IMG/VR virus record: IMGVR_UViG_3300037485_000466
Location: 1-37,056 of that record
Direction: 5' to 3' (one strand)
Source of the DNA: a virus
Length of the DNA stretch: 37,056 nucleotides
Each line of letters starts with the position of its first letter. Position 1 is the first letter of the stretch. Made by a program: the position numbers and the translations under genes. A model generated the notes under the pieces. The model did not search any database, was not told where the DNA came from, and saw nothing but the letters and a program-made list of their open reading frames with translations. This document shows positions 2,400 to 37,056 of this stretch, one piece after another.

Positions 2400-4748
2400 A
2401 TGAGTGAGGATCGCACGAAGTTCATAGAGTATATAACTGGCTTGGCGACAGACAATGTCGGCGAGACAGCTTTAGTTGTGCGGCAGAAGCCGCAGCACGA
2501 CAGCGACGGCAACATGATATTCCACGCAGACGGCGCGCCGAAGGCGACCTTCCCTGCGTTTTTGCCAGAAAAGACCCGCATGAAAGAAGGCGAGGCATGG
2601 TATGTCAACACAGGCTCGTTCATCGTTGACCGCTTTGTAGACGGCAAGCCGTCCGCCAAGTCCAGCAACGTCGAGTATGTGTTGTTTATGATGCTGGATG
2701 ATGTCGGCACCAAGTCGAAAGAACCGCCGCTAGAGCCGACATGGGTGCTGGAAACAAGCGAAGGTTCGTTTCAGTGGGGCTACGCGTTCAGCGAACAGCC
2801 AAAGAAGGGCGACTTCTGCGCTGCCATCAAGGCGATTGCCGACGCAGGCTACACTGACCCCGGCGCGACTAACGCTGTCCGCAACTGCCGTATCCCCGGC
2901 AGCGTCAACCTGAAGCAAGGGCGCAATAACTTTCCTGCGCGGCTGGTATCGTTCAACCCTGAGCGTGAGTATACGCTGGATGAGATATGCAAGGCGCTTG
3001 ACGTGACGCCAGAGGAAGGCGACACAGCCGAATATAAAGCGGTGCAGTTGCGCGACACTGGGCTGGACAACGTCCTGACATGGCTTGCCGAAAAGAACCT
3101 AGTCCTAAGCACGCCCAACAATGACGGCTGGTGCGGCATCGTCTGCCCTAACCATCGCGAACACAGCGACGGCATGATAGAGGCGCGCTACAAACCGCTG
3201 GATCGTTCGTTCTGCTGCTATCATGGGCATTGCCAAGACTTAGACAGCCGCACCTTTCTTGATTGGGTAGCCAACAACGACGGCCCGAAGGTAACGCCGG
3301 GCTTGCGTGACGAACTAATCGCTGAACGTCTGGCGTCGATGTATGAGAAAATCGCACCGACCGAAGCCTTTCCTGATGAAGCCGCAGCGCGTGTGCGTGA
3401 GGTCGAGAAAAAAGAAGCAGGACGGCTGGAACAAAGCGAGTGGTTCGAGCGTTTCGCATACATACAGTCCGATGACTGCTATTTTGACATGGTGACGCGT
3501 CAAGAGATAGCCCGCAACGTCTTTAATGCGTTGTTCCGTCACGTTGACTGCCGCTCCATCCACAAGAAAACGCAGCGCGTGCAGTCGTCCATCTATTTTG
3601 ATGAGCGCCGTCAAGACCGCGGCGCGCCTGCGCTGTCGGCGGTGACGTTCGCCGCTGGCGATGACGTTCTGGTGACGCGCGACGGGTTGGTTTACGGCAA
3701 CCGCTGGACAAACGCCCGCCCTGATGTGTCGGGCAGTGACAAGATTGCAGACCATGACGTCGAGCCTTGGCTAGAGCATTGCCGCAATCTGGTGGCGGAT
3801 GACGCCGAGTTAGACCACATCCTTAACGCTATGGCGTTCAAGATACAGCGTCCCAACGTCAAGATTAACCATGCCATCCTGATTGGCGGCGATGAAGGCG
3901 CTGGTAAGGACAGTATGTTTCAGCCGTTCCTGTGGGCGCTTGGTGGTCAACACTGGCGCAATCGGTCAGTCATTGAGGCTGGCGGCTTAGACAGCCAGTG
4001 GGGTTATTCGCTGGAGGCTGAAGTTGTCATCCTAAACGAGTTGAAGGAGCCAGAGGCAAGAGAGCGCCGCGCTATGGCTAACAAACTGAAGCCGCTCATC
4101 GCTGCACCACCTGAAACGCTGTCGGTAAACCGCAAGGGGATGCACCCCTATGAGTTGGTCAACCGCCTGATGGTGATTGCTTACACGAACGATCCGCTGC
4201 CTATCACGCTGCCGACACAGGACCGTCGCTGGTTCTGCGTGTGGACGCGCGCGCCGCGTATGACAACGGCGGCGGCTAAGGCGCTGTGGGGCTGGTATGA
4301 GAACGGCGGCTATGAGAAGTGCGCCGCTTGGCTGCATCAGCGCGATGTGTCGGCGTTCAACCCTGCCGCTGCGCCTCCTGTCACCGAATGGAAGCTGAAC
4401 ATGGTTGAACATGGCATGAGCGTAGCGGAAAGCTATCTTGTGGACATGATGCGGACGCGGTCGGGCGTGTTCTCTGACGGCGTCATTGGTGGGCCTTTCC
4501 ACCGCATCTGTGACGCGCTGGCGGTCAATGTCCCTGCCGGTGTGAAGATACCGCAGGCGGCGCTCCTACACGCACTAAAAGAGGCTGGCTGGGTCGATAT
4601 GGGGCGGATCGGTTCAACTGAACTGCCGACCAAGAAACACATCTTTGTCGCGCCTGATCTTGTTAAGAAGCACAGCAAGTCAGAGTTGCGCCGCATGGCG
4701 GAAGAATTACCTAAGTCGGGCATCATGCCAAACTTAGGCAAGAATTGA
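2400..4748 (+). CDS. Primase-helicase (RepB-like AEP primase plus DUF5906/VapE-type SF3 ATPase)
   Basis: This 782-residue protein probably primes and unwinds DNA for the upstream polymerase. The N-terminal part resembles archaeo-eukaryotic (RepB-type) primases: a hydrophobic strand ending in MLDD (D100, D101), the FQWGY stretch near 125, and RIPGSVN at 164-170. A Cys/His cluster near residues 244-280 (CGIVCPNH then CCYHGHC) could bind zinc. The C-terminal half is a P-loop ATPase: Walker A GGDEGAGKDS at about 496-505, an acidic Walker B-like VVILNELKE strand, and an arginine-rich TQDRRWF segment typical of VapE/DUF5906 helicases. A good ribosome site (AGAGGAG) precedes the ATG. Fusion of primase and helicase in one chain is common in phages. 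It is the last gene of the replication arm; a strong terminator follows. Confidence 0.92.
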   Translation: MSEDRTKFIEYITGLATDNVGETALVVRQKPQHDSDGNMIFHADGAPKATFPAFLPEKTRMKEGEAWYVNTGSFIVDRFVDGKPSAKSSNVEYVLFMMLDDVGTKSKEPPLEPTWVLETSEGSFQWGYAFSEQPKKGDFCAAIKAIADAGYTDPGATNAVRNCRIPGSVNLKQGRNNFPARLVSFNPEREYTLDEICKALDVTPEEGDTAEYKAVQLRDTGLDNVLTWLAEKNLVLSTPNNDGWCGIVCPNHREHSDGMIEARYKPLDRSFCCYHGHCQDLDSRTFLDWVANNDGPKVTPGLRDELIAERLASMYEKIAPTEAFPDEAAARVREVEKKEAGRLEQSEWFERFAYIQSDDCYFDMVTRQEIARNVFNALFRHVDCRSIHKKTQRVQSSIYFDERRQDRGAPALSAVTFAAGDDVLVTRDGLVYGNRWTNARPDVSGSDKIADHDVEPWLEHCRNLVADDAELDHILNAMAFKIQRPNVKINHAILIGGDEGAGKDSMFQPFLWALGGQHWRNRSVIEAGGLDSQWGYSLEAEVVILNELKEPEARERRAMANKLKPLIAAPPETLSVNRKGMHPYELVNRLMVIAYTNDPLPITLPTQDRRWFCVWTRAPRMTTAAAKALWGWYENGGYEKCAAWLHQRDVSAFNPAAAPPVTEWKLNMVEHGMSVAESYLVDMMRTRSGVFSDGVIGGPFHRICDALAVNVPAGVKIPQAALLHALKEAGWVDMGRIGSTELPTKKHIFVAPDLVKKHSKSELRRMAEELPKSGIMPNLGKN

Positions 4749-4806
4749 CACGGGATAACGTGCGATGATATACGGATAAGGTCGGTGAAACTCCGCTGGC
4801 CTTTTT

Positions 4807-4842
4807 AAGCCCCCTGCGTCCTCACTCCGCAGGGGGCTTTTT
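4807..4842 (+). terminator. Intrinsic terminator ending the replication arm
   Basis: A perfect 12-bp GC-rich stem (4807-4818 with 4828-4839), a 9-base loop and five T residues (4838-4842) make a strong plus-strand terminator, 58 bases after the primase-helicase stop. A weaker stem with a T run (about 4780-4806) lies just before it. The stem overlaps the end of the convergent minus-strand gene at 4822-5019 and encodes part of that protein's tail. On the minus strand no U run follows, so it would terminate mainly the plus-strand transcript. Confidence 0.85.
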
Positions 4843-5019
4843 ATTGTCTGCTAGCGCAGCCTTTCTCTTTAGGTTCCTGTAGCGGCCTTCGACGGACGCA
4901 ATCGTCAGCCCCATTTGCTCCGCCATGTAGGATGGTCTTAGGCCATGCTCATAATAAGCCAGCAACTCTGCATCCATTTCAGGCGTCCACACGCGTCTAG
5001 GCCGTTTTACTATGGGCAT
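4822..5019 (-). CDS. Small Myb/SANT-like helix-turn-helix DNA-binding protein
   Basis: This 65-residue basic protein begins with a Pro/Arg-rich stretch and then WTPEMDAELL, the tryptophan-acidic pattern of Myb/SANT or GcrA-like domains. A turn and a recognition-like helix (MAEQMGLTIASVEGRYRNLK) follow. This size and pattern are typical of small phage DNA-binding proteins. It is the last gene of the early minus-strand arm and the only clear sequence-specific DNA-binding candidate outside the nucleases, so it could be a regulator of the divergent control region at 9.1-9.8 kb; that link is a guess. An AAAGGA ribosome site lies 7 bases upstream, and the start overlaps the previous stop (TAATG). 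Its last codons lie in the terminator stem of the opposite strand. Confidence 0.8.
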   Translation of the reverse strand: MPIVKRPRRVWTPEMDAELLAYYEHGLRPSYMAEQMGLTIASVEGRYRNLKRKAALADNKKPPAE

Positions 5020-5201
5020 TATTCGTCCTTTAATGCGGCTTCGGCATCTTCGATCAAGTCAATGGGCGGATAGCGCAGATAGCTTACATGGTCAGCGGTT
5101 ATTACGCCAAGAAACTCAAGATACTCCATCAGGCGGTAGGCCAAGGTTTCGGCTGCCCGTTCGGTGTATCTGTCGGGCAGTGTGTCGTCGTCATCAATCA
5201 T
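5019..5201 (-). CDS. Acidic small protein, unknown function
   Basis: This 60-residue protein is not recognised. It starts MIDDDD and is rich in Asp and Glu, with one long predicted helix region (RAAETLAYRLMEYLEFLGVI). Being small, acidic and early-expressed, it could be a host-protein inhibitor or DNA mimic, but nothing in the sequence proves this. It overlaps its upstream neighbour by 8 bases and its downstream neighbour by one base (TAATG), so the three are almost certainly translated together. Confidence 0.72.
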   Translation of the reverse strand: MIDDDDTLPDRYTERAAETLAYRLMEYLEFLGVITADHVSYLRYPPIDLIEDAEAALKDE

Positions 5202-5463
5202 TTGCTTTCCAATCTTTAGGGTAGGGGACTGTTCGATAGCTGGTCATGTGAAGTCTGCCATCTTCGCCCCAGTGTTCGCTTATGGTGGTTCCGTCATCGT
5301 TCAGCAAAACGGCTAGGTCGCCATAAATATGTAGCGGCTTTCCTGTCTTGGGGTCGATGCGGTAGCGTATGTCGGCTGCGTCTATGAACCCACCATCCGG
5401 CCAAGGGTCATCCCGCCACACTGGCCGTGCGGCGTGAACGTAGACTGGTATTTTGTCATTCAT
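5194..5463 (-). CDS. Conserved-looking early protein, unknown function
   Basis: This 89-residue soluble protein is not recognised. The middle (RYRIDPKTGKPLHIYGDLAV) reads like a beta-rich fold with a hairpin at DPKTGKP, followed by a second hairpin (LLNDDGTTISEHWGEDGRLH). There is no signal peptide and no metal-binding motif. The gene overlaps the next start by 8 bases, and its final codons (AAAGCAAATGATTGA) are a degenerate form of the stop/start module shared by other junctions in this arm. Confidence 0.72.
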   Translation of the reverse strand: MNDKIPVYVHAARPVWRDDPWPDGGFIDAADIRYRIDPKTGKPLHIYGDLAVLLNDDGTTISEHWGEDGRLHMTSYRTVPYPKDWKAND

Positions 5464-5620
5464 CGTCTTTCTCCGGTGTTAGAAGTGCAGTCAACACTAC
5501 TGCGTGAACTGTTCCGTTTGGTTTGCGAAACTCTGTATATCCATCAGGCATATCTTCGCGGGCGCAACCATTGAAGTCCCAGCCTTGCCGTTTACCAGCT
5601 AGTCTGTAAGTGGCTGTCAT
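5456..5620 (-). CDS. 54-residue early protein, unknown function
   Basis: This short frame (MTATYRLAGK... ending TPEKDDE) fills the gap between two longer genes with no leftover space. It overlaps the downstream start by 8 bases and its own ATG overlaps the upstream stop as ATGA. It has an AAGGA ribosome site supplied by the repeated junction module. The continuous coupling on both sides makes it a likely real gene. The pattern of Gly, Trp, Tyr and Phe suggests a small beta-rich fold. No function is recognised. Confidence 0.68.
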   Translation of the reverse strand: MTATYRLAGKRQGWDFNGCAREDMPDGYTEFRKPNGTVHAVVLTALLTPEKDDE

Positions 5621-5634
5621 TTGCTTTGTTCCTT
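5617..5634 (-). repeat. 18-bp coupled stop/RBS/start module, copy 1
   Basis: On the minus strand this reads AAGGAACAAAGCAAATGA. It encodes the last codons (EQSK, stop) of the upstream gene, supplies the AAGGA ribosome site and contains the next ATG overlapping the stop. Identical copies lie at 6061-6078 and 6330-6347. Confidence 0.85.
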
Positions 5635-5874
5635 GATGTAGTCGGCGCGTTTAACGCTGTCTGCCAACTGGCGCTGGTTGTAAGCCAAAAACCAATCCGC
5701 AATTTTGGTGCGTTCGATCTCCATGCCTTTGCGTAGGCCAGCTTCAGCAAGGCGCATCCATACAGTGCGATCTAAATCGCCTGTTAAATAACGCTGGCTA
5801 TCATCATTGGTCTGCCGTTCCGCTTGGATGGAACAGATAGTGCGGGCTGCTTTTGTAATTTGTTCATTTGTCAT
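5617..5874 (-). CDS. Early protein with ERxKIAxW helix, unknown function
   Basis: This 85-residue, mostly helical protein is not recognised by name. The C-terminal half (MEIERTKIADWFLAYNQ) resembles the corresponding part of the early protein at 6061-6333 (IAERKRIVAWLRSQ), and both end in KEQSK. The two may share a small helical domain that I know only as a recurring element of short phage proteins. It has its own ribosome site (AGGA, 7 bases from ATG) and overlaps the next start by 4 bases. Confidence 0.72.
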   Translation of the reverse strand: MTNEQITKAARTICSIQAERQTNDDSQRYLTGDLDRTVWMRLAEAGLRKGMEIERTKIADWFLAYNQRQLADSVKRADYIKEQSK

Positions 5875-5878
5875 TTTC

Positions 5879-6064
5879 TTATCCTAATCTAGTGATGAAT
5901 GTAACGCCGTTGATCGTGCGGCACTTGAACGACTTGCCGTTGCGTATCCCGTATTGCGACACGTTGCGGCTGGTGCGCTTGGCATCGCCGCGCTTGTCGG
6001 CTGGCATGGTGGCGCTCTCGCCTACGGCTAGCGTTCCCATAGGGTAAAACATCGGGCGGCTCAT
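5879..6064 (-). CDS. 61-residue basic early protein, unknown function
   Basis: The protein is small and basic, with a central DKRGDAKRTSRNVSQYG segment and a C-terminal strand pattern (GKSFKCRTINGVTFITRLG). The charge pattern would suit nucleic-acid binding, but no motif is decisive. The start overlaps the upstream stop as ATGA inside the repeated module; only 4 bases separate its stop from the next gene. Confidence 0.7.
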   Translation of the reverse strand: MSRPMFYPMGTLAVGESATMPADKRGDAKRTSRNVSQYGIRNGKSFKCRTINGVTFITRLG

Positions 6065-6078
6065 TTGCTTTGTTCCTT
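6061..6078 (-). repeat. 18-bp coupled stop/RBS/start module, copy 2
   Basis: This copy is identical to 5617-5634 and 6330-6347. It links the stop of the 90-residue gene to the start of the 61-residue gene. Confidence 0.85.
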
Positions 6079-6333
6079 TAAATGTTCGCCGGCTTCAATA
6101 TCATCGGCGGCTTCCTCGTAAATGTCGTCATGGTGGCCGCCTTGCGACCGCAGCCACGCCACAATCCGTTTGCGCTCCGCGATGGCCGCTTGGCCTGCCA
6201 ATGCGCGGTTGTGTTCGTCACAATATGCGTCGGCTTCTTCTTCGCTGTCGAACGTTATTTCAGGGTCGTTTACCAAATACCACCCCCGCCCGTCCTCTCT
6301 CCAAACCACCCATTGTTCTTGCAATTCGCTCAT
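6061..6333 (-). CDS. Acidic early protein with ERKRIVAWL helix, unknown function
   Basis: This 90-residue protein starts with a Trp-rich strand pattern (EQWVVWREDGRGWYLV). An acidic helix (SEEEADAYCDEHNRAL) follows, then the amphipathic IAERKRIVAWLRSQ segment and an acidic tail ending HLKEQSK. The second half resembles the neighbouring 85-residue protein. It is linked by 4-base ATGA overlaps at both ends, using two copies of the same 18-bp module. Confidence 0.72.
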   Translation of the reverse strand: MSELQEQWVVWREDGRGWYLVNDPEITFDSEEEADAYCDEHNRALAGQAAIAERKRIVAWLRSQGGHHDDIYEEAADDIEAGEHLKEQSK

Positions 6334-6347
6334 TTGCTTTGTTCCTT
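6330..6347 (-). repeat. 18-bp coupled stop/RBS/start module, copy 3
   Basis: This copy is identical to the modules at 5617-5634 and 6061-6078. It joins the 44-residue gene to the 90-residue gene. Confidence 0.85.
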
Positions 6348-6464
6348 TTCATCCCGTTTGCGCTCCGCAAAGGTCTTACCGTCCAGCCCGCGCAGCGGCC
6401 ATGCGCTGTCGGACGATACGCGATATTTGCGCCCCATTGGCGCGGCTTGTTGTGGCTTTATCAT
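6330..6464 (-). CDS. 44-residue early protein, unknown function
   Basis: This short frame (MIKPQQAAPMGRKYRV... ending RDEKEQSK) lies exactly between two larger genes, 4 bases after the previous stop and overlapping the next start by 4 bases. It has the same KEQSK end as two neighbours, which supports it being translated. A GGAG lies 10 bases before the ATG. It contains FAERKR, echoing the AERKR of the 90-residue protein, so it may be a shortened relative. Function is unknown. Confidence 0.65.
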   Translation of the reverse strand: MIKPQQAAPMGRKYRVSSDSAWPLRGLDGKTFAERKRDEKEQSK

Positions 6465-6468
6465 GGTC

Positions 6469-6810
6469 TCATATCTCCAATGTTGTCGATGGCTTGGCGC
6501 GCTTGTCGGTCAGCCTATCCAGCCAAAAGACTTGCTCAGGTCCATAGGACCGCGCGGCATGGTATTTGAACAACGCTAAGGCCAAGTCATCATATCCCTT
6601 GCGCTTGTGCGTGACGATTAGCGGTGACGGCGTCATGGCCTCTAGGTCAGTGCGCCGTGCGCGTATATTCTTGCGCTTGATGACTTCCTCTAGGTCGTGC
6701 AGCGTCAGGCGTAGGTTATGCTCGCGGTTAACGTGCTGAAGCACGGCGGATTTATCGCTGATATAGCCGCATAGGTGCTTTATCTGCTTTTTGACTGCAT
6801 GGTCTATCAT
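6469..6810 (-). CDS. Basic early protein, possible DNA-binding protein
   Basis: This is a 113-residue protein rich in Lys, Arg and His. The segment LRLTLHDLEEVIKRKNIRARR has the spacing of a helix-turn-helix followed by a basic patch, but I cannot assign a family. An open frame extends upstream to 6918, but I prefer the ATG at 6810. It overlaps the upstream stop as ATGA, has AAGGA upstream, and avoids a long overlap with the membrane-protein gene. Confidence 0.7.
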   Translation of the reverse strand: MIDHAVKKQIKHLCGYISDKSAVLQHVNREHNLRLTLHDLEEVIKRKNIRARRTDLEAMTPSPLIVTHKRKGYDDLALALFKYHAARSYGPEQVFWLDRLTDKRAKPSTTLEI

Positions 6811-7010
6811 GTGCGCTTGTCCTTTTTGACATATTTGCCAGTGTTTGGATCGCGCAGCACGGCGTTGCGTTTCCAATAAAGCAATTCGGACGTGTCGCGC
6901 ATCCATGCGTCCCGCCATTTGTCGCCATGCTTAACGGCTTCCCATAGCAAGAACAGCGTGACGCCCTGCGATATTAAGAATAATATGATTACGATTTGAT
7001 AATGGTCCAT
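6807..7010 (-). CDS. Small single-pass membrane protein
   Basis: This 67-residue protein has one hydrophobic segment at about residues 5-24 (QIVIILFLISQGVTLFLLW) followed by a highly charged tail ending KKDKRT. The positive charge after the helix suggests the N-terminus faces out and the tail faces the cytoplasm. It is one of three tiny membrane proteins in this early arm. Possible roles are superinfection exclusion or modification of the host envelope early in infection; there is no direct evidence. Confidence 0.72.
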   Translation of the reverse strand: MDHYQIVIILFLISQGVTLFLLWEAVKHGDKWRDAWMRDTSELLYWKRNAVLRDPNTGKYVKKDKRT

Positions 7011-7012
7011 GA

Positions 7013-7072
7013 TTAATCATCCAATAATAAGGTTAATAGAAATAGGGCGGCGCCGGCTAATAAAGCCGTCAT
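7013..7072 (-). CDS. 19-residue hydrophobic peptide (possible micro-gene)
   Basis: The frame encodes MTALLAGAALFLLTLLLDD, almost entirely a membrane helix. Its ATG overlaps the upstream stop as ATGA, the linkage used throughout this arm, and the next gene begins 3 bases beyond its stop. There is no clear ribosome site, so expression would depend on coupling. It could also be chance; without it there would be a 58-base gap in an otherwise packed operon. Confidence 0.4.
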   Translation of the reverse strand: MTALLAGAALFLLTLLLDD

Positions 7073-7311
7073 TTGACGCCGCGTAGGGCGTCTAATTCGT
7101 CCATTGCTTCGATCGCCTGTTGTTTCCAGATATCGCACCGGGCGTCTAATTCGTCTCGTTCATTGGTTACGTTTTCCAATTGCTCTTGAACGTCCAGCAG
7201 GGCGATCAGGCGCTCGGCTAGTACTAAGGCAAGCTCGTTGTCACTGGCGCGCCCGGCGTCGATCAATCCGCTATCCGATAGCATACGTAAATAGTTTCGA
7301 TCGTATGTCAT
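7069..7311 (-). CDS. Coiled-coil early protein, unknown function
   Basis: This 80-residue acidic protein is largely helical. The segment ERLIALLDVQEQLENVTNE, continuing to about residue 75, has regular hydrophobic spacing typical of a coiled coil, with one Cys. It may form a dimer or bind a partner. AAAGGA lies upstream of the ATG, and the previous gene ends 3 bases before. Confidence 0.7.
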   Translation of the reverse strand: MTYDRNYLRMLSDSGLIDAGRASDNELALVLAERLIALLDVQEQLENVTNERDELDARCDIWKQQAIEAMDELDALRGVK

Positions 7312-7314
7312 TGC

Positions 7315-7413
7315 TTACTGTCCTTTCAACGTGATAGTTATTGCATATATTGATAGGGCGCCGACGCCCCAAAAGAACGTTATGACGGCTATATGGGCTA
7401 ATTGCGCTAGCAT
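7315..7413 (-). CDS. 32-residue membrane peptide
   Basis: The frame encodes a hydrophobic peptide (MLAQLAHIAVITFFWGVGAL, then IYAITITLKGQ), probably one membrane helix. It fits exactly between two genes: 3 bases after the upstream stop, and 3 bases before the next ATG. The AAAGGACAG that encodes its last codons also acts as the next ribosome site. It lacks a strong ribosome site of its own. Confidence 0.52.
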   Translation of the reverse strand: MLAQLAHIAVITFFWGVGALSIYAITITLKGQ

Positions 7414-7416
7414 GGC

Positions 7417-7653
7417 TTAGGCGCCCTTCAGCATGGCTTTTAATTCGGCTTTGATCGATCGCGCCGTGTCGCCTTTCCATGTTGTGGTATTAGCCAAGAA
7501 ATAGCGCACGACGCTTTCTGCATCGTCATAATAGTACTTATCGCGGATCGATTGCAGGCTATGCATCGCGTCAAGATAAGGCACGGCACCAAAATAGGGT
7601 TTGGTCCAGTCGCGGCTAATATCGCGGGCGATCGTATCAATTGAACGGTTCAT
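7417..7653 (-). CDS. 78-residue early protein, unknown function
   Basis: This soluble, helical protein is rich in aromatic residues (RDWTKPYFGAVPYLDAM, YYYDDAESVVRYFLAN) and ends in a basic helix. It looks like a conserved short phage protein, but I cannot name a family. AAAGGA precedes the ATG. An unusual hairpin (7688-7739) lies just upstream in the transcript. Confidence 0.72.
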   Translation of the reverse strand: MNRSIDTIARDISRDWTKPYFGAVPYLDAMHSLQSIRDKYYYDDAESVVRYFLANTTTWKGDTARSIKAELKAMLKGA

Positions 7654-7687
7654 AATATATTGTCCTTTACTGTACTGTTGCTGGCAT

Positions 7688-7739
7688 TAGCGCCATAAAC
7701 GCCGCGCGCGGTAACGATCGCGCGGCTAATATGGCGCTA
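7688..7739 (-). other. Two-tier perfect hairpin between early genes
   Basis: An outer 10-bp perfect stem (7688-7697 with 7730-7739) encloses an inner 8-bp perfect GC-only stem (7701-7708 with 7719-7726) and a 10-base loop. The outer arm contains the TAG stop of the upstream gene. No U run follows, so it is not a standard terminator. It may be an RNA processing or stability element that sets different levels for genes on either side. Confidence 0.7.
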
Positions 7740-7901
7740 GCCGTCTTGCAGATAGCCGCATTTCTTGATCGCGACGCCGCGGTAAAGCATACCGCGCTTG
7801 AGAAAATCAAAGCGCCATTTGGCCTGCCCCTGCCTTAGATTAGGCCAAGCGATCTGTTGCCCGTCGTTCAAGATCGCCCAAGCTTTCCAATTCTTTTCCA
7901 T
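7737..7901 (-). CDS. 54-residue early protein, unknown function
   Basis: The frame (MEKNWKAWAILNDGQQIAWP... ending KKCGYLQDG) has an excellent ribosome site (AAGGGG about 9 bases before ATG) and lies 12 bases after the Gp88-like gene. It is basic with four Trp residues. Strong translation signals and tight packing support it as a gene. Its stop codon lies in the stem of the hairpin at 7688-7739. Confidence 0.68.
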   Translation of the reverse strand: MEKNWKAWAILNDGQQIAWPNLRQGQAKWRFDFLKRGMLYRGVAIKKCGYLQDG

Positions 7902-7913
7902 TATGCTTTCCCC

Positions 7914-8777
7914 TTATCCTACAACAAAGCCGGATTGATCGCGGCGCGCCTTGCCTTTAGCGTAAAGCGCAACGACGGCGCCTTTCGGATCTAAATGGCG
8001 GATATCAGTGTTATCGCCGTCAACGACGGGCAGGCCTAAAAACGTATCGCCATTGGCAAGCATAGCGTTAACGATCGCGCGATCGCGGAAAACGGCGGCG
8101 ATCCGCTCGCCATTAGCGACGGCTTTAGCGACAAACGGTTGATAAGCTTCGACACCGCTATAGCTAAAAGTTAGATCGTAATTAGCCGGCACGTTTTTAC
8201 GGTTAGCGATCTTGGTATAGTCATAGAATTGGATATCCGGCAACGCTTGCATAATGTTAGCATATGCATGGCCTATAGGTTCGTTTTCCCACCGGATATC
8301 GCTTGTACCGTTCAAGCGCACAATAAGCTTATAGCCTTTACGCTTGGCTTTAGCGCGCTCGCGGATCAATTCGTTCTGCAATTGCAACATGAATTGATCG
8401 CGGTATTGATTGAAGTATAGCGTCTTGCGTAAACGCGACAACATAACGCTATTCATGGCGCCGCGACCGGCGGTGAATAGGCACGCCTTTTCACAACCCG
8501 CCGTTTTCGCCATTGGACACAATTGAGTACCGCCTTGCTCGGCTGGCATTAGATAAAGGATAGCCGTCTTGATCCCGTATTGCTCGCCCTTGATCGTTTT
8601 CGCGTTTGTATCGATCCCTAAAAGCTTTTCGGGCAAGCGCGCGAATAGCGAGCGATTGTGATCGTTACCTAAAATCTGCAGTTGGATATCTAACGATAGC
8701 GCCGAAATATCATAAGCAAGCGCGGCGTCGACGGCTTTGTGATTATATGCGAACGGGTGATTGATTAAATGTATCAT
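7914..8777 (-). CDS. Gp88-family phage protein
   Basis: This 287-residue protein is the largest in the early minus-strand arm. It matches my memory of the phage Gp88 family (proteins containing GTQLCPMAKTAGCEKACLF and the later VRLNGTSDIRWE and QFYDYTK blocks). It has a C-x8-C-x3-C cluster at about residues 87-100 that could hold a metal or Fe-S centre. The family is common in phages, but its biochemical role is not established. Some members are labelled radical SAM-like; the canonical CxxxCxxC motif is not present here. The DNA is rich in GATC compared with the late genes. It is the second gene after the early promoter and so should be strongly expressed early. Confidence 0.8.
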   Translation of the reverse strand: MIHLINHPFAYNHKAVDAALAYDISALSLDIQLQILGNDHNRSLFARLPEKLLGIDTNAKTIKGEQYGIKTAILYLMPAEQGGTQLCPMAKTAGCEKACLFTAGRGAMNSVMLSRLRKTLYFNQYRDQFMLQLQNELIRERAKAKRKGYKLIVRLNGTSDIRWENEPIGHAYANIMQALPDIQFYDYTKIANRKNVPANYDLTFSYSGVEAYQPFVAKAVANGERIAAVFRDRAIVNAMLANGDTFLGLPVVDGDNTDIRHLDPKGAVVALYAKGKARRDQSGFVVG

Positions 8778-8802
8778 AATAGTTTCTCACTCTATTGATT
8801 GA

Positions 8803-9018
8803 TTAAATATGAATAATGCCCGTATCATCCATTAGCGTCGCATAATGGACCGGGCGCTCGTACAAGCCGGTAACGCCGTCGCGATAGATCGATATCCAGC
8901 GACCGGCGATCGCAAGCGCGACCGTAGCGCCATAAGGCACGCTAGCCGTGATAGGCCATATATCGATCAAGCTTTCACTATCCAGCGCGGCGTTTAACGT
9001 ATCGAAATAGTTTTGCAT
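8803..9018 (-). CDS. First gene of the early arm, unknown function
   Basis: This 71-residue protein (MQNYFDTLNAALDSES..., strand-rich C-terminal half with Trp, Tyr and Thr) has no recognised family. I chose the ATG at 9018, which follows GAGG with a 9-base gap. The frame stays open to a TTG at 9159, so a longer 118-residue form cannot be excluded, although it would run into the repeat region. With the ATG start the transcript from the promoter near 9231-9258 has a leader of about 200 bases. Confidence 0.55.
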   Translation of the reverse strand: MQNYFDTLNAALDSESLIDIWPITASVPYGATVALAIAGRWISIYRDGVTGLYERPVHYATLMDDTGIIHI

Positions 9019-20649: not shown

Positions 20650-21162
20650 ATGGAAACGGCTGGCATCTACGCGATTGTGAACACGGAGACTTGCGATATG
20701 TACGTAGGGTCCGCTGTTAACGTCGTTCGCAGATGGCGCCGCCATAAGCACGATCTTCGTAAAAGCGTACACGCTTGCCGCCATTTGCAAAACGCTTACC
20801 GTAAGTACGGCGCAGATGCGTTTGATTGGGAAGTTGTTGAGGTGGTCGGCAACAAAGAAGATTTGATTTCCCGCGAGCAATTCTGGATGGATTTTTTTCA
20901 TCCCGCATATAACAAACGCAGTATAGCTAATTCGTGCCTTGGCCTAAAACGCTCTCCAGAAGCGCGCGAAAAAATGCGCCAAGCACATCTCGGACGCAAA
21001 CAATCACCTGAAACGATTGCAAAACGCGCAGCAGCTTTGCGGGGTAAGCCGCGTTCGTCCGAAGTCCGCGCAAAAATTAGCGCGTCGCACATCGGTATAC
21101 GTCCATCTGCTGAGTCAAGGGCAAAAATGTCCGCATCCGCCAAGCAAAGGAAAACGAAATGA
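20650..21162 (+). CDS. GIY-YIG homing endonuclease with NUMOD3 repeats
   Basis: This 170-residue mobile nuclease has the GIY-YIG core at residues 1-90: GIY (5-7), YVG (18-20), Arg 27/28, Glu 76 as metal ligand, and N88. From about 95 it carries NUMOD3-type DNA-binding repeats (LGLKRSPEAREKM, HLGRKQSPETIAKR, LRGKPRSSEVRAKI, IGIRPSAESRAKM). It is free-standing between structural genes, not in an intron, and overlaps the gp4-like start by 4 bases. All key residues are present, so it is probably active and would cut related genomes lacking it. Confidence 0.93.
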   Translation: METAGIYAIVNTETCDMYVGSAVNVVRRWRRHKHDLRKSVHACRHLQNAYRKYGADAFDWEVVEVVGNKEDLISREQFWMDFFHPAYNKRSIANSCLGLKRSPEAREKMRQAHLGRKQSPETIAKRAAALRGKPRSSEVRAKISASHIGIRPSAESRAKMSASAKQRKTK

Positions 21163-33235: not shown

Positions 33236-33423
33236 TTCTTCAGCCCCTTCATAATTTCGACGCGCTCTCGCGCTGTCCGCATCGCAGAGTAACGCTGATG
33301 CAACCGCCGCGCGATGGCTGGGCGCTTGTGCGTCTTCAGTTCCGCGTCCAGCGCGTCCTTTAGCTGTTCTTCCGTAAGGTCGGACAGCACGGCGATCATC
33401 GACCGCCAGTTTAGTTTACTCAT
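33232..33423 (-). CDS. 63-residue helical protein, unknown
   Basis: This protein is basic and all-helical (LSDLTEEQLKDALDAELKTH, then RRLHQRYSAMRTARERVEIM). The first helix pair resembles a short substrate- or DNA-binding bundle, but no family is recognised. It overlaps its neighbours by 4 and 8 bases and belongs to the replication-repair arm. Confidence 0.7.
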   Translation of the reverse strand: MSKLNWRSMIAVLSDLTEEQLKDALDAELKTHKRPAIARRLHQRYSAMRTARERVEIMKGLKK

Positions 33424-33916
33424 TTTTTAATTCTCCAGTGTTTGCAAATGCGCCGTGCATAGTTTTCTGCGCTGCATCTATGGCGGCGGCAGCGTCCTCT
33501 ATATTACGAAAATACCCTAGTCTTTTACGCTGACCGTTTACGCGGATTTGCGCGGTCCAACGCTTAGTCGGCGCATACCACACAACATTTTTTACGCCGG
33601 AAGTGTTGTCGGTACGTTTTCGTGTGTTCCATTGATTTTCTGCGCGCGTAGCGGCACGTAGGTTTTCAATTCGGTTGTTAGACGCATCGTTATCTTTATG
33701 ATCTATCTCGTCAGGAAGCCAACCGTTGTGCAGCAGAAACACTAATCTGTGGGTGTACATTAGTTTCCCGTCAACGCTTACGATCCGCCGGCCATTATCT
33801 TTTCGGGTATACCCCGCTTCGTCGCCTACGCGGATTTTATGCGACCGGCTAACGCGCCAAAATAGCTTTCCTTCGCGGTAACTAAACAAATCTGAAACAT
33901 ATTGTTGTGTCAACAT
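33416..33916 (-). CDS. HNH homing endonuclease with AP2-like DNA-binding domain
   Basis: This is a 166-residue free-standing nuclease. The HNH part spans about 54-97: THRLVFLLHNGWLPDEIDHK with D72 and H73 in the active site, then NRIENLRAATRAENQ. Residues about 106-152 form an AP2-like domain (SGVKNVVWYAPTKRWTAQIR, GYFRNIEDAAAAIDAA). I start at ATG 33916, which overlaps the helicase stop by 7 bases; the frame open to 33973 lies inside the helicase gene. It is probably an active mobile element inserted at the helicase 3' end. Confidence 0.9.
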   Translation of the reverse strand: MLTQQYVSDLFSYREGKLFWRVSRSHKIRVGDEAGYTRKDNGRRIVSVDGKLMYTHRLVFLLHNGWLPDEIDHKDNDASNNRIENLRAATRAENQWNTRKRTDNTSGVKNVVWYAPTKRWTAQIRVNGQRKRLGYFRNIEDAAAAIDAAQKTMHGAFANTGELKNE

Positions 33917-35220
33917 TTTAACTCTTCCAAGGCTATGTCGGACACCGCACGCTTGTCGTGCAGCGCCGCCCATATGCGTTCATCAATACTCTTTTCGGTT
34001 AACATCACATAGACCCAGACATCTTTCGTCTGGCCGCTGCGGTGCAGGCGCCCGACCGTCTGCTCGTACAGTTCCAGCGACCAAGGCAGCGACAGGAACA
34101 CCATGTGGCAGCCGCCATGCTGTAGGTTCAGGCCGTGGCCTGCCGACTTAGGGTGGGCCAACAGCAATTCGACCTGCCCTGCGTTCCAGTGTTCGATGAC
34201 GTTGTCGTCGTCCATCGTCTTTGCGTGCGGGAAGCGGCGCTTCAGTTCTGCCAACTCTTCCTGATAGGTGTACGCGACGATGGTGTTGGCCCGCTGGTTC
34301 TCCGCCAGCAGTTCTTCCAGCCGGTCAAACTTGTGGCTGCTGAACCAGATGGACGGCGTGCCAGCGTCGCGGTTGTAGACAAAGCCTGACGCCATCTGTT
34401 GCAGCTTGGTTGTCACCGACGCTGCGTTCTGCGCTACGATCTGGTCGTCGCCGAAGCGCACGACATATTCGCGCTTCATCTTTTCATATGGCTTGCGGTC
34501 GTCCAGCGCGACGCGCACTTCCGTGACGTGGCACGGCGGCAGCTTGTCCTTGTACTCGCCCGGCTCCAGCACGAACGTCGCAGGGCGGATGCGCTGCATG
34601 ACTTGCTCCAGCGCGCCGGCGGCGGGAACCCACTGGCCGAAGTCGCGGTTGGTGCAGATGAAATACTGCTGCATGAACGCGCCCTTGGCGCGGCCCAGCA
34701 GCCCTTGGTCGATGATCTTGCACTGGCCGAAGACATCCTCCAGCCCGTTCGACGTGAACGAGCCTGTCAGACCCCAGCGCACCTTGACGTTAGCCAGCAG
34801 CTTGTCCAGCGCCTTGAAGCGTTTGCCGCTGGGGTTCTTCAGCCGCGTCAGTTCGTCGAATACAATTCCATCAAAGCCCGATAAATCCTCTAGCTTATCT
34901 AGGTTGTCATAGTTAATGACGACGACACTGGCGTCGCTCCGCAACGCATCCACCCTTTGCGCTGGCGTGCCGACAGCCAGCGCAGGAGCGACGCCAGACC
35001 ACTTCGGTGCTTCGACAGGCCACACGTCCGTGCAGACGCGCTTCGGCGCTACGACCAGCCAGCGTTTGACATGGCCGCCGCGCAGCATCTCGTCCATCGC
35101 CGTCAGGGTGATGGCGGTCTTGCCCGCGCCGACAGGCGCAAGAATCATGGCGCGGTCGCGCTCGTACAGGAACGTCGCCGCCTGCTGCTGATAATCTCTT
35201 AGCTGAAGCGTTTGAGCCAT
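33910..35220 (-). CDS. SNF2/SF2-type DNA helicase
   Basis: This 436-residue ATPase has Walker A APVGAGKTA (28-36), the DEAD-box equivalent VFDEL (D122, E123), motif III LTGS (151-154), motif V SAGHGLNLQ and motif VI QTVGRLHRSGQ (387-397). It probably remodels replication or recombination intermediates. The pairing with VRR-NUC, DUF2800 nuclease and Pol A forms a module shared by many phages and prophages. ATG 35220 has GAGGTGG at ideal spacing; a start at 35244 is less likely. It overlaps the VRR-NUC end by 22 bases. Confidence 0.93.
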   Translation of the reverse strand: MAQTLQLRDYQQQAATFLYERDRAMILAPVGAGKTAITLTAMDEMLRGGHVKRWLVVAPKRVCTDVWPVEAPKWSGVAPALAVGTPAQRVDALRSDASVVVINYDNLDKLEDLSGFDGIVFDELTRLKNPSGKRFKALDKLLANVKVRWGLTGSFTSNGLEDVFGQCKIIDQGLLGRAKGAFMQQYFICTNRDFGQWVPAAGALEQVMQRIRPATFVLEPGEYKDKLPPCHVTEVRVALDDRKPYEKMKREYVVRFGDDQIVAQNAASVTTKLQQMASGFVYNRDAGTPSIWFSSHKFDRLEELLAENQRANTIVAYTYQEELAELKRRFPHAKTMDDDNVIEHWNAGQVELLLAHPKSAGHGLNLQHGGCHMVFLSLPWSLELYEQTVGRLHRSGQTKDVWVYVMLTEKSIDERIWAALHDKRAVSDIALEELKC

Positions 35221-35474: not shown

Positions 35475-35571
35475 AAAAGGGGGCTACCACAAAATTTTTT
35501 GCGTTTAAAGCCCTTGCATCATATTTTGTTGTATGTATATTGGCCGTTCAAACAGTAGAGTGAGGTACGAT
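35475..35571. promoter_or_regulatory. Divergent promoter region between the two replication arms
   Basis: These 97 bases separate the VRR-NUC gene (minus) from the DUF2800 gene (plus). They are clearly more AT-rich than the flanking genes. They hold a plus-strand promoter candidate (35514-35541), an AAAATTTT core flanked by GGGCT (35481-35485) and AGCCC, and a minus-strand TATGAT box without a good -35. The early replication genes on both sides are likely started from here. Confidence 0.6.
35514..35541 (+). promoter_or_regulatory. Promoter candidate for the replication arm
   Basis: TTGCAT (35514-35519) and TATATT (35536-35541, 5 of 6 consensus) are 16 bases apart. Transcription would begin near 35548, leaving a leader of about 24 bases with GAGG about 6 bases before the DUF2800 ATG at 35572. 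Confidence 0.5.
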
Positions 35572-36693
35572 ATGCAACACAGTAAGATAGTCGGCGGTTC
35601 GACCGCCAAACGCGTCATCGCCTGCCCCGGCAGCGTGGCGCTGGTGGACAGCGTTCCACCAAAGCCTAGCAGCAGCTACGCCGACGAAGGCACGCTCCTG
35701 CATGACACTATAGCAACTATATTAGAGCGTGACCTTGACCCTTACGACATGGTCGGCACAAAATACGCTGATAGCGTACTTACTGAAGCACTGGTCGATG
35801 ACAAGCTGATACCGGCGCTGCGCGCGCTGGACGAGATAGACCCTACAGGGGAGTTGGTTTATGCAGTCGAAAGCAGGGTTGGTTTTGGTGATTTTCTGCC
35901 TGACGTTTTTGGTTCTACCGATCTTCTTGGTCGCATTGGTGATAGAGCGGTCGTTCTGGATTGGAAGTTCGGCGATGGCGTGGCTGTCGAAGTCGAAGAG
36001 AACAGCCAATTACTCTTCTACGCTGCGGCGGCTAAACGCACGGCGGATACGGCTTGGGCTTTTGAAGGCGCAAAAGAAGTCGAACTAATCATTGTACAAC
36101 CACCGTTCGTTAAGCGGTGGGTGACAACGCTAGCCCGCGTTGACGCGTTTGAGCAAGAACTTGCCGCTGCCGTCAAGATTGCTGCGCGGCCAGACGCGCC
36201 GTTGGCGTCAGGCGACCATTGCAAGTGGTGCGCGGCCAAGCCCATCTGCCCTGTCATGACAGGCGCTGTAGACCGCGCGCTGAAAGCCAAGATTGACGCG
36301 CTGCCGATTGACCAGATTGCACACTATCTGGAGCAGGCGCCGCTGATTGAAGCGTTCATCAAGGACTTGCAGCAGATGGCGCACGGGCTTCTGGAAGAAG
36401 GCCGTAAAGTCCCCGGCTGGAAGCTGGTCAACAAACGCGCCACAAGACAGTGGACAAATGAGGATAAGGCTGTAGCCTTCCTGACAGGTGTTGGTGTAGA
36501 AGCATGGGGCGACCCCAAGCCGCTGTCACCAGCCCAAGCGGAAAAGGCTTTGAAGAAAGCCAAAATAGAATTGCCAGCGGACTTAGTTGTCGCTGTCTCC
36601 ACAGGCTCTACCCTTGCGCCGGAAAATGATCCCCGGCCAGCGGTTTTGCAAATCGGGCAGACGCTTACCAAAGCTATGTCTAAAATCCAGTAA
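35572..36693 (+). CDS. DUF2800 Cas4/RecB-like nuclease with four-cysteine cluster
   Basis: This 373-residue protein belongs to the DUF2800 group of PD-(D/E)XK nucleases. Visible catalytic residues are H44 (LLHD), D117 (GSTD), D130 and K132 (LDWKFG), and Q146/Y150 (QLLFY). One cysteine near the N-terminus (C18 in ACPGS) and three toward the middle (C217, C220, C226 in CKWCAAKPIC) match the split Fe-S cluster of Cas4 and AddB. It is probably a 5'-end processing exonuclease for replication or recombination. The frame is open to 35533, but ATG 35572 has GAGG at proper spacing. It is followed by the SSB-like gene after 18 bases. Confidence 0.92.
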   Translation: MQHSKIVGGSTAKRVIACPGSVALVDSVPPKPSSSYADEGTLLHDTIATILERDLDPYDMVGTKYADSVLTEALVDDKLIPALRALDEIDPTGELVYAVESRVGFGDFLPDVFGSTDLLGRIGDRAVVLDWKFGDGVAVEVEENSQLLFYAAAAKRTADTAWAFEGAKEVELIIVQPPFVKRWVTTLARVDAFEQELAAAVKIAARPDAPLASGDHCKWCAAKPICPVMTGAVDRALKAKIDALPIDQIAHYLEQAPLIEAFIKDLQQMAHGLLEEGRKVPGWKLVNKRATRQWTNEDKAVAFLTGVGVEAWGDPKPLSPAQAEKALKKAKIELPADLVVAVSTGSTLAPENDPRPAVLQIGQTLTKAMSKIQ

Positions 36694-36711: not shown

Positions 36712-37056
36712 ATGTCGAATATCACAACTTTTGGTGGCGCTGGTTTGCCATCCGTCCAATCTCTCTCCGGTGCGCTGCGCTCCATCCAGTCCGAAGTCGG
36801 GCCGGGCGGCACAGTCATCTTGAAGATGGACAAGACAGGCCATTGGGTTTTCGGTGCTGACCAGACCGAAGTAGAAGACGGCAGCCTGTGGGCCGCCAAT
36901 CCGTTCTCGTTCGTTCACGGCTATATTGCGTGGGGTAACGGCGAAGTGCTGGCTGAGAAGCTGGTTCCGGTGTCAGAGCCGCTGCCAGAGTTAGAACCAG
37001 CGCCATCAGGCGCAACGCGCGGATGGGAAATGCAGGTCGGCATGATGCTGGTTTGC
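36712..37056 (+). CDS. Putative ssDNA-binding protein, N-terminal part (continues at position 1)
   Basis: This is the first 115 codons of the gene that closes the circle; the last 51 bases repeat positions 1-51, so the joined protein has 220 residues. It starts MSNITTFGGAGLPSVQSLSG and has beta-strand alternation (GGTVILKMDKTGHWVFGADQ, SFVHGYIAWGNGEVL). A Pro/Glu linker follows, compatible with an OB-like fold but not diagnostic. The placement between DUF2800 and DNA polymerase is the main reason to propose ssDNA binding. Confidence 0.8.
   Translation, partial: MSNITTFGGAGLPSVQSLSGALRSIQSEVGPGGTVILKMDKTGHWVFGADQTEVEDGSLWAANPFSFVHGYIAWGNGEVLAEKLVPVSEPLPELEPAPSGATRGWEMQVGMMLVC
37006..37056. 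repeat. 51-bp terminal identity, right copy
   Basis: This stretch is identical to positions 1-51; see that entry. Removing one copy gives a circle of 37,005 bp with the wrapping gene intact. Confidence 0.93.

Follow-up and report, generated by a model that had tools for sequence, protein, structure and literature searches.

The window and its small genes

The window, that is, the entire stretch of 37,056 nt that was analysed, is a whole virus record. Its first 51 bases (1-51) are identical to its last (37006-37056) and an ORF of 220 aa runs across the record join, so the window is probably a complete, circularly assembled genome. Because this ORF reads across the join, positions 25-369 probably form the end of a longer gene adjacent to that of the DUF2800 exonuclease; a Pfam search with the protein encoded across the join gave no match. 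The window encodes a family A DNA polymerase, a DUF5906 primase-like protein, P22-like portal and coat proteins, an SNF2-type helicase and a DUF2800 / PD-(D/E)XK exonuclease, and to judge from this predicted gene set it is a P22-like phage. The closest DNA polymerase was that of MW202483 (60.7% identity). A phage collection contained no match for the DNA of positions 3000-9000 or for the protein of 5620-5874.

A group of small genes lies on the minus strand at 4822-8777, beside the primase gene (2400-4748). Their size and position suggest that they may be early genes. Family searches with ten of them gave nothing firm except for an HTH-like match; the other matches were weak and led to unknown families. 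The features of the locus, with the basis of each assignment, are as follows.

6330-6464, minus strand: U1, 44 aa, MIKPQQAAP...KEQSK, followed by at least 13 next-gene families in relatives (translation, relatives)
6330-6347, minus strand: module copy 1, KEQSK-stop of U1, Shine-Dalgarno (SD) site and start of the next gene (exact match, translation)
6061-6333, minus strand: 90-aa gene with the module on both sides; locus L321 is without the gene and one module (translation, alignment)
6061-6078, minus strand: module copy 2 (exact match, translation)
5879-6064, minus strand: fam0, 61 aa, SRPMxYPMGTL..., the commonest gene of the sampled region; searches found no function for it (translation, families)
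5617-5874, minus strand: 85-aa gene, TNEQITKAAR..., ending ADYIKEQSK, with other tails in homologues (translation, homologues)
5617-5634, minus strand: module copy 3 (exact match, translation)
5456-5620, minus strand: 54-aa gene, TATYRLAG..., after module copy 3 (translation; homologue in L351)
4822-5019, minus strand: HTH-like gene, MPIVKR..., closing the variable segment (family searches, relatives)
2400-4748, plus strand: primase-like protein, DUF5906, used as a bait for relatives independent of the module (family searches)
20650-21162, plus strand: GIY-YIG-type homing endonuclease gene among structural genes (family searches)
33416-33973, minus strand: HNH endonuclease gene adjoining the helicase gene (family searches)
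35536-36690, plus strand: DUF2800 / PD-(D/E)XK exonuclease, a candidate recombination enzyme (family searches)

An 18-bp module at three gene junctions

A scan of the whole 37,056-nt record confirmed an earlier sequence-only reading, according to which an identical 18-mer stands at three minus-strand junctions: AAGGAACAAAGCAAATGA occurs exactly at 5617-5634, 6061-6078 and 6330-6347, and no fourth copy with up to three mismatches is present in the window. In 100 shuffles the 18-mer occurred 0.03 times on average, and three copies were never reached (0/100).

Translation also bore out the anatomy proposed in that reading, a C-terminal EQSK and stop, a ribosome site and an overlapping ATG. Read with the upstream gene, each copy is AAG GAA CAA AGC AAA TGA, i.e. 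KEQSK-stop, and this ends all three upstream genes (6330-6464, 6061-6333 and 5617-5874). Read with the downstream gene, it is an SD site, a spacer and an overlapping ATGA start, which begins the genes at 6061-6333, 5879-6064 and 5456-5620. The SD site is AAGGAA or AAGGAG and lies inside the last codons of the upstream gene. Degenerate forms had been suspected near 5201 and 7311, but both differ from the module at more than three positions: the start near 5201 has five mismatches over 18 positions, and near 7311 only SD-like and AGCA letters are in common.

Occurrence of the module in other contigs

The exact 18-mer was found in 38 stretches of viral contigs and its reversed form, used as a control, in none. 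A variant with GAG was found in 92 stretches of viral contigs, 80 of which were listed. When the spacer was scrambled and the SD site and start were kept, both variants together matched 29 stretches of viral contigs; these matches showed no reassortment, the upstream and downstream clusters being the same loci. In the far larger collection of genome contigs, 95 stretches matched one or the other variant, mostly with apparently unrelated genes, which we regard as background; these matches were left out of the analyses of reassortment, of edges with one gene fixed and of segments between copies.

A scan with synonymous codons matched at least 119 stretches. Among the first 80 listed, the GAG form accounted for 31 copies and the exact form for nine, most other variants being located in unrelated, often A+T-rich contigs; in this phage group, only GAA and GAG were common among these 80, with one other clear variant in L072. 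The use of the A or G variant within a genome followed no clear pattern in 45 loci with at least two copies. Literature searches, within their reach, returned nothing on this module.

In a second phage group the GAG module is present in 21 loci (L046, L074, L079 and 18 others), always between the same gene pair, one ending ESIQK.KEQSK and the next beginning MSAFRFG or MSGFKFG. In these loci the module is conserved without swapping.

Different genes on both sides of the module

After removal of genome matches and repeated contexts, 115 copies remained, 112 of them followed by an ORF of 24 aa or more. These 112 distinct copies, which include unrelated phages and therefore overstate the numbers for this phage group, comprised 51 downstream families, 25 in-frame upstream families and 64 pairs. 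Among them U1 was combined with 11 downstream families, genes ending GEHLKEQSK with five, and those ending RAIKEQSK or ADYIKEQSK with three each. U1 itself gave 152 matches, 72 of them distinct, and the next genes belonged to 13 called families (one U1 had no called next gene); genes were called with a simple custom script, and the single-linkage families may merge genes with a common tail, as was seen in this next-gene set. U1 overlaps the next start by exactly 4 nt in 70/72 distinct loci. Its last 18 nt are within one mismatch of the module in 42/72, which is not an unbiased rate because some loci of the set were collected by the module and others by U1. The module is therefore a reused joint between many unrelated small genes. 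The sequence-only reading had pointed to relatives as the place to look for different genes at the 18-mer, and related phages do carry them there.

Three copies within 731 bp, two of which (at 6061 and 6330) have 21 bp in common (AAAGGAACAAAGCAAATGAGC), could also be the product of a single local duplication in this genome. However, no paralogy links the genes at the three copies, so the duplication of genes envisaged in the sequence-only reading was not supported, and 38 viral stretches carry the same 18-mer beside many further partners. Because of this spread over many contigs and gene pairs, local duplication was rejected; we give it a negligible probability. The sequence-only reading would have taken relatives with the same gene order and no module as a sign of such a duplication. 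Relatives of this kind exist: among 33 sequences with the U1-fam0 pair, 12 have the module (up to one mismatch) and 13 do not (at least six mismatches). The spread of the module nevertheless excludes the duplication that was to follow from them.

KEQSK might also be a selected C-terminal peptide tag, e.g. for degradation or binding, with DNA identity as a consequence. In agreement with this, 84/112 distinct copies form the end of an upstream ORF that is in frame and 30 residues or longer. The other 28/112 have no in-frame upstream ORF of 30 residues, and five of these (L035, L081, L098, L160 and L171; L007 and L022 are other contexts) follow a gene in a different frame; this gene ends EIRF-TAA, its stop abutting or overlapping the module, and in the five loci the module leads to four different genes. 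The near restriction of this phage group to GAA and GAG among the synonymous matches listed first speaks against selection on the peptide as well, and so do homologues of the same proteins without the KEQSK tail: a homologue of 6061-6333 in L347 (74% identical) ends KELDE and follows another gene. On the strength of the frame-free copies, the few synonymous variants and the tail-less homologues, the tag was rejected as the main cause and is very unlikely.

Homology ends at the module

With U1 fixed, 728 pairs with different next genes and both modules within one mismatch were compared. Identity was 0.93 in the module. Just upstream it was about 0.6, a value depressed by gaps at the end of U1, and beyond the module it was 0.23-0.27 from base four onwards. 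The reverse comparison, with fam0 fixed behind upstream genes of three types (13 pairs among 8 copies), gave 0.23-0.26 before the module, 0.96 within and 0.82/0.76 after it; for the HTH gene as the fixed one (10 pairs among 5 copies), the values were 0.32-0.33, 0.97 and 0.95/0.75. The classes ALPERY (a U1 variant labelled 'other') and TM (two genes lumped) were left out of the fixed-gene comparison. The compared junctions thus have the module and little else in common, and homology ends at both module edges.

A pair of loci illustrates the consequence for gene content. From the start of U1 to the stop of fam0 the window has 586 nt and L321 has 317 nt, with closely aligning flanks. The difference of 269 nt corresponds to one gene (6061-6333) plus one module, which makes L321 the empty site. 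To the 23 segments between neighbouring copies of a 15-nt core, this phage group contributes about eight single-gene cassettes (L005, L018, L029, L049, L140, L326, L457 and the window); the other segments are longer or come from other phages. Single genes can apparently be slotted in or out at the module with their neighbours left intact.

The gene at 6061-6333 has its C-terminal stretch, ER..IV.WLR...GEHLKEQSK, in common with genes of L005, L016, L022 and L415, whereas the N-terminal halves differ, which suggests exchange inside genes as well. The 54-aa gene at 5456-5620 has a homologue in L351 (90% identical) that stands behind another junction. In L022 a tandem TTTTTAG repeat on the minus strand runs up to the module, before the HTH gene.

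Start words in an unselected sample

As a sample not selected by the module, 80 loci were chosen by the primase gene out of 181 primase-encoding stretches. Genes were called beside the primase gene in these loci and the window, and 69/81 with at least 3000 nt were kept, giving 1229 proteins in 236 families. The gene order has a conserved frame (families 3, 1, 2, 4, U1 or fam10, 0, 9, 5) with variable insertions between its members. Upstream of 948 SD-bearing starts, 44 14-mers (counted as distinct word-family pairs) were common to at least two families, compared with 0.09 expected from a position-specific Markov null.

Three words had varied neighbours on both sides: C1, GGARCAAAGCAA, which is this module; C2, GGAGTGAG-; and C3, GGAAACTRAACC. 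Along the region they follow in the order C2, C3, C1. The candidates C4, C5 and C6 were rejected as independent words; their upstream flanks are long and identical, and the break that they show is located at the start codon. In the 56 loci (995 genes) left after deduplication, C1 was located in the segment after U1 or fam10 in 22/24 instances, C2 in the first segment in 72/72 and C3 between fam3 and fam1 in 26/26, a result that is exploratory because the C1-C3 patterns were defined after the shared words had been seen. Counted by family, 12/14 (C1, segment D), 35/35 (C2, segment A) and 6/6 (C3, segment B) agreed, the hypergeometric values of the test ignoring the relatedness of the loci. No family in the 56 loci carried two of these words. 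C2 and C3 are absent from the window, and none of the three words was found in the 15,293 bases of MW202483 examined.

A tentative interpretation is that the segments might be addresses, each with its own start-joint word, and that recombination between like words might move genes within a segment and seldom between segments. Exchange would then be largely confined to segments, and the order of the operon would therefore be kept while its content turns over.

Many C2 copies are preceded by an inverted repeat, TGGCGCTAGTGCCA, that is common to different downstream families. Elements of this type occur in the first segment of L316, L319, L321, L326 and others, and at about 7640-7700 on the minus strand of the window; they lie within 60 nt of a start in 14 families.

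Gene turnover at junctions with and without the module

Per sample of 15 loci, 4.3 distinct next genes were counted after U1, 5.1 after fam10, 9.2 after fam0, 7.2 after fam5 and 8.0 after fam8. C1 was present at 12/26 U1 junctions and 4/24 fam8 junctions and at none of those of fam10, fam0 and fam5. Gene turnover is thus equal or higher at module-free junctions and does not need the joint. The swap connector of the sequence-only reading therefore stands as a reused joint with varied partners, homology edges and an empty site; the module as the driver of swapping is not supported, given a next-gene diversity of 4.3 after U1 against 5.1-9.2 after the module-free fam10, fam0 and fam5.

Start words that agreed to within 2 of 14 on both sides were found for 11/164 insertion configurations, which exceeds both random pairs of unrelated starts (0.45%) and successive starts in a locus (26/891). 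Insertions with like words on both sides are a minority. The U1-fam0 pairs without the module and the second phage group with its constant gene pair likewise speak against a recombination joint. Look-alike start pairs per record numbered three in the window, 10 in the right half of Adephagia and five in T7 (none identical), and from zero to three in 16 stretches of relatives; lambda and P22 had none. By this count per record the window stands out less than Adephagia and does not exceed T7.

These data bear on the possibility that the module is a start signal only, kept alike by selection or convergence, and that illegitimate recombination close to gene ends swaps the genes, with the crossover outside the shared letters. 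The position of the SD site and start within the module, the high turnover at module-free junctions and the majority of insertions without like words on both sides would all fit, and passages of the work on start-associated sequences propose a role in translation initiation for those elements (PMC3203893). On the other hand, the letters outside the SD site, CAAAGCAA, vary no more than the SD site itself, a single best start does not predict different words in different operon segments, the null expects almost no word sharing, and the empty site is precise and retains one module. Taken together, we regard a start signal alone as unlikely.

A probable start element that may double as a recombination joint

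The explanation that we favour, and hold to be probable with some reserve, is that the 18-mer is a translation-coupling start element doubling as a recombination joint. Observed are the reuse of partners on both sides, homology ending at the edges, the pair of empty and occupied sites and the use of the module outside the upstream frame. Recombination itself, its enzyme and translational coupling, the last deduced from the anatomy of the module, are putative steps. A ribosome ending one gene could begin the next at the ATGA where stop and start overlap, with the SD site in the upstream codons. As the variable region has these letters at many of its junctions, recombination could join genes there: by annealing or homology between copies, a gene with the module at its end could be connected to any gene starting within it, and recombination between direct repeats could insert or delete one gene plus one module. 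The DUF2800 exonuclease points to a capacity for recombination, its tie to the module being purely putative.

Whether phage mosaicism arises via short shared joints or by random breakage and selection is an old question. Here, a natural group of uncultured phages with many related contigs makes joints readable and comparable with joint-free junctions. If the segment-specific words hold, they would indicate how gene exchange in a compact operon is reconciled with preserved order and translational coupling. A limit follows from the data as well, since the joint is not required for turnover.

Comparison with known systems

According to passages of PMC3203893, start-associated sequences (SAS) of cluster K mycobacteriophages are 13-bp repeats with an SD core (consensus GGGATAGGAGCCC) located just before starts in the non-structural half of the genome; they precede genes of different families, in 11-19 copies per genome, and about half carry an upstream inverted repeat (ESAS). 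The present scan recovered them in Adephagia as its 10 look-alike pairs, which served as a positive control. As an SD-core repeat before starts of different non-structural gene families, the module is the same general kind of element, and some C2 copies recall ESAS by their upstream inverted repeat. It does not belong to the cluster K family itself, its sequence being AAGGARCAAAGCAAATGA. Compared with 11-19 SAS copies per genome, the window has three of C1, and C1 lies mostly inside the upstream gene, to which it supplies the last codons and the stop. Recombination is not proposed for SAS in the passages of PMC3203893 considered here.

In lambdoid phages, passages of PMC3029335 describe boundary sequences as short shared gene borders at which exchange occurs by homologous recombination. 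A short shared sequence at gene borders with unrelated sequence beyond is also found here, whereas a concentration of gene exchange at the shared sequence, as for boundary sequences, is not. The same source reports that an inserted gene of Island3 (gene 68) repeats the 18 C-terminal residues of the gene upstream of it. This is the geometry of U1 and the gene 6061-6333 in the window, but the Island3 repeat covers about 50 bp and represents one event, compared with 18-21 bp and many gene pairs here. PeSLs of T4-like phages, repeated gene-border elements said in parts of PMC4503421 to mediate the shuffling of small genes, likewise stand at borders of small genes; they are described there as a promoter plus stem-loop, whereas the module is an SD/start joint and mostly coding. 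The module thus differs from SAS and boundary sequences in its letters, in its position within the coding end of the upstream gene and in the presence of sister words in other segments.
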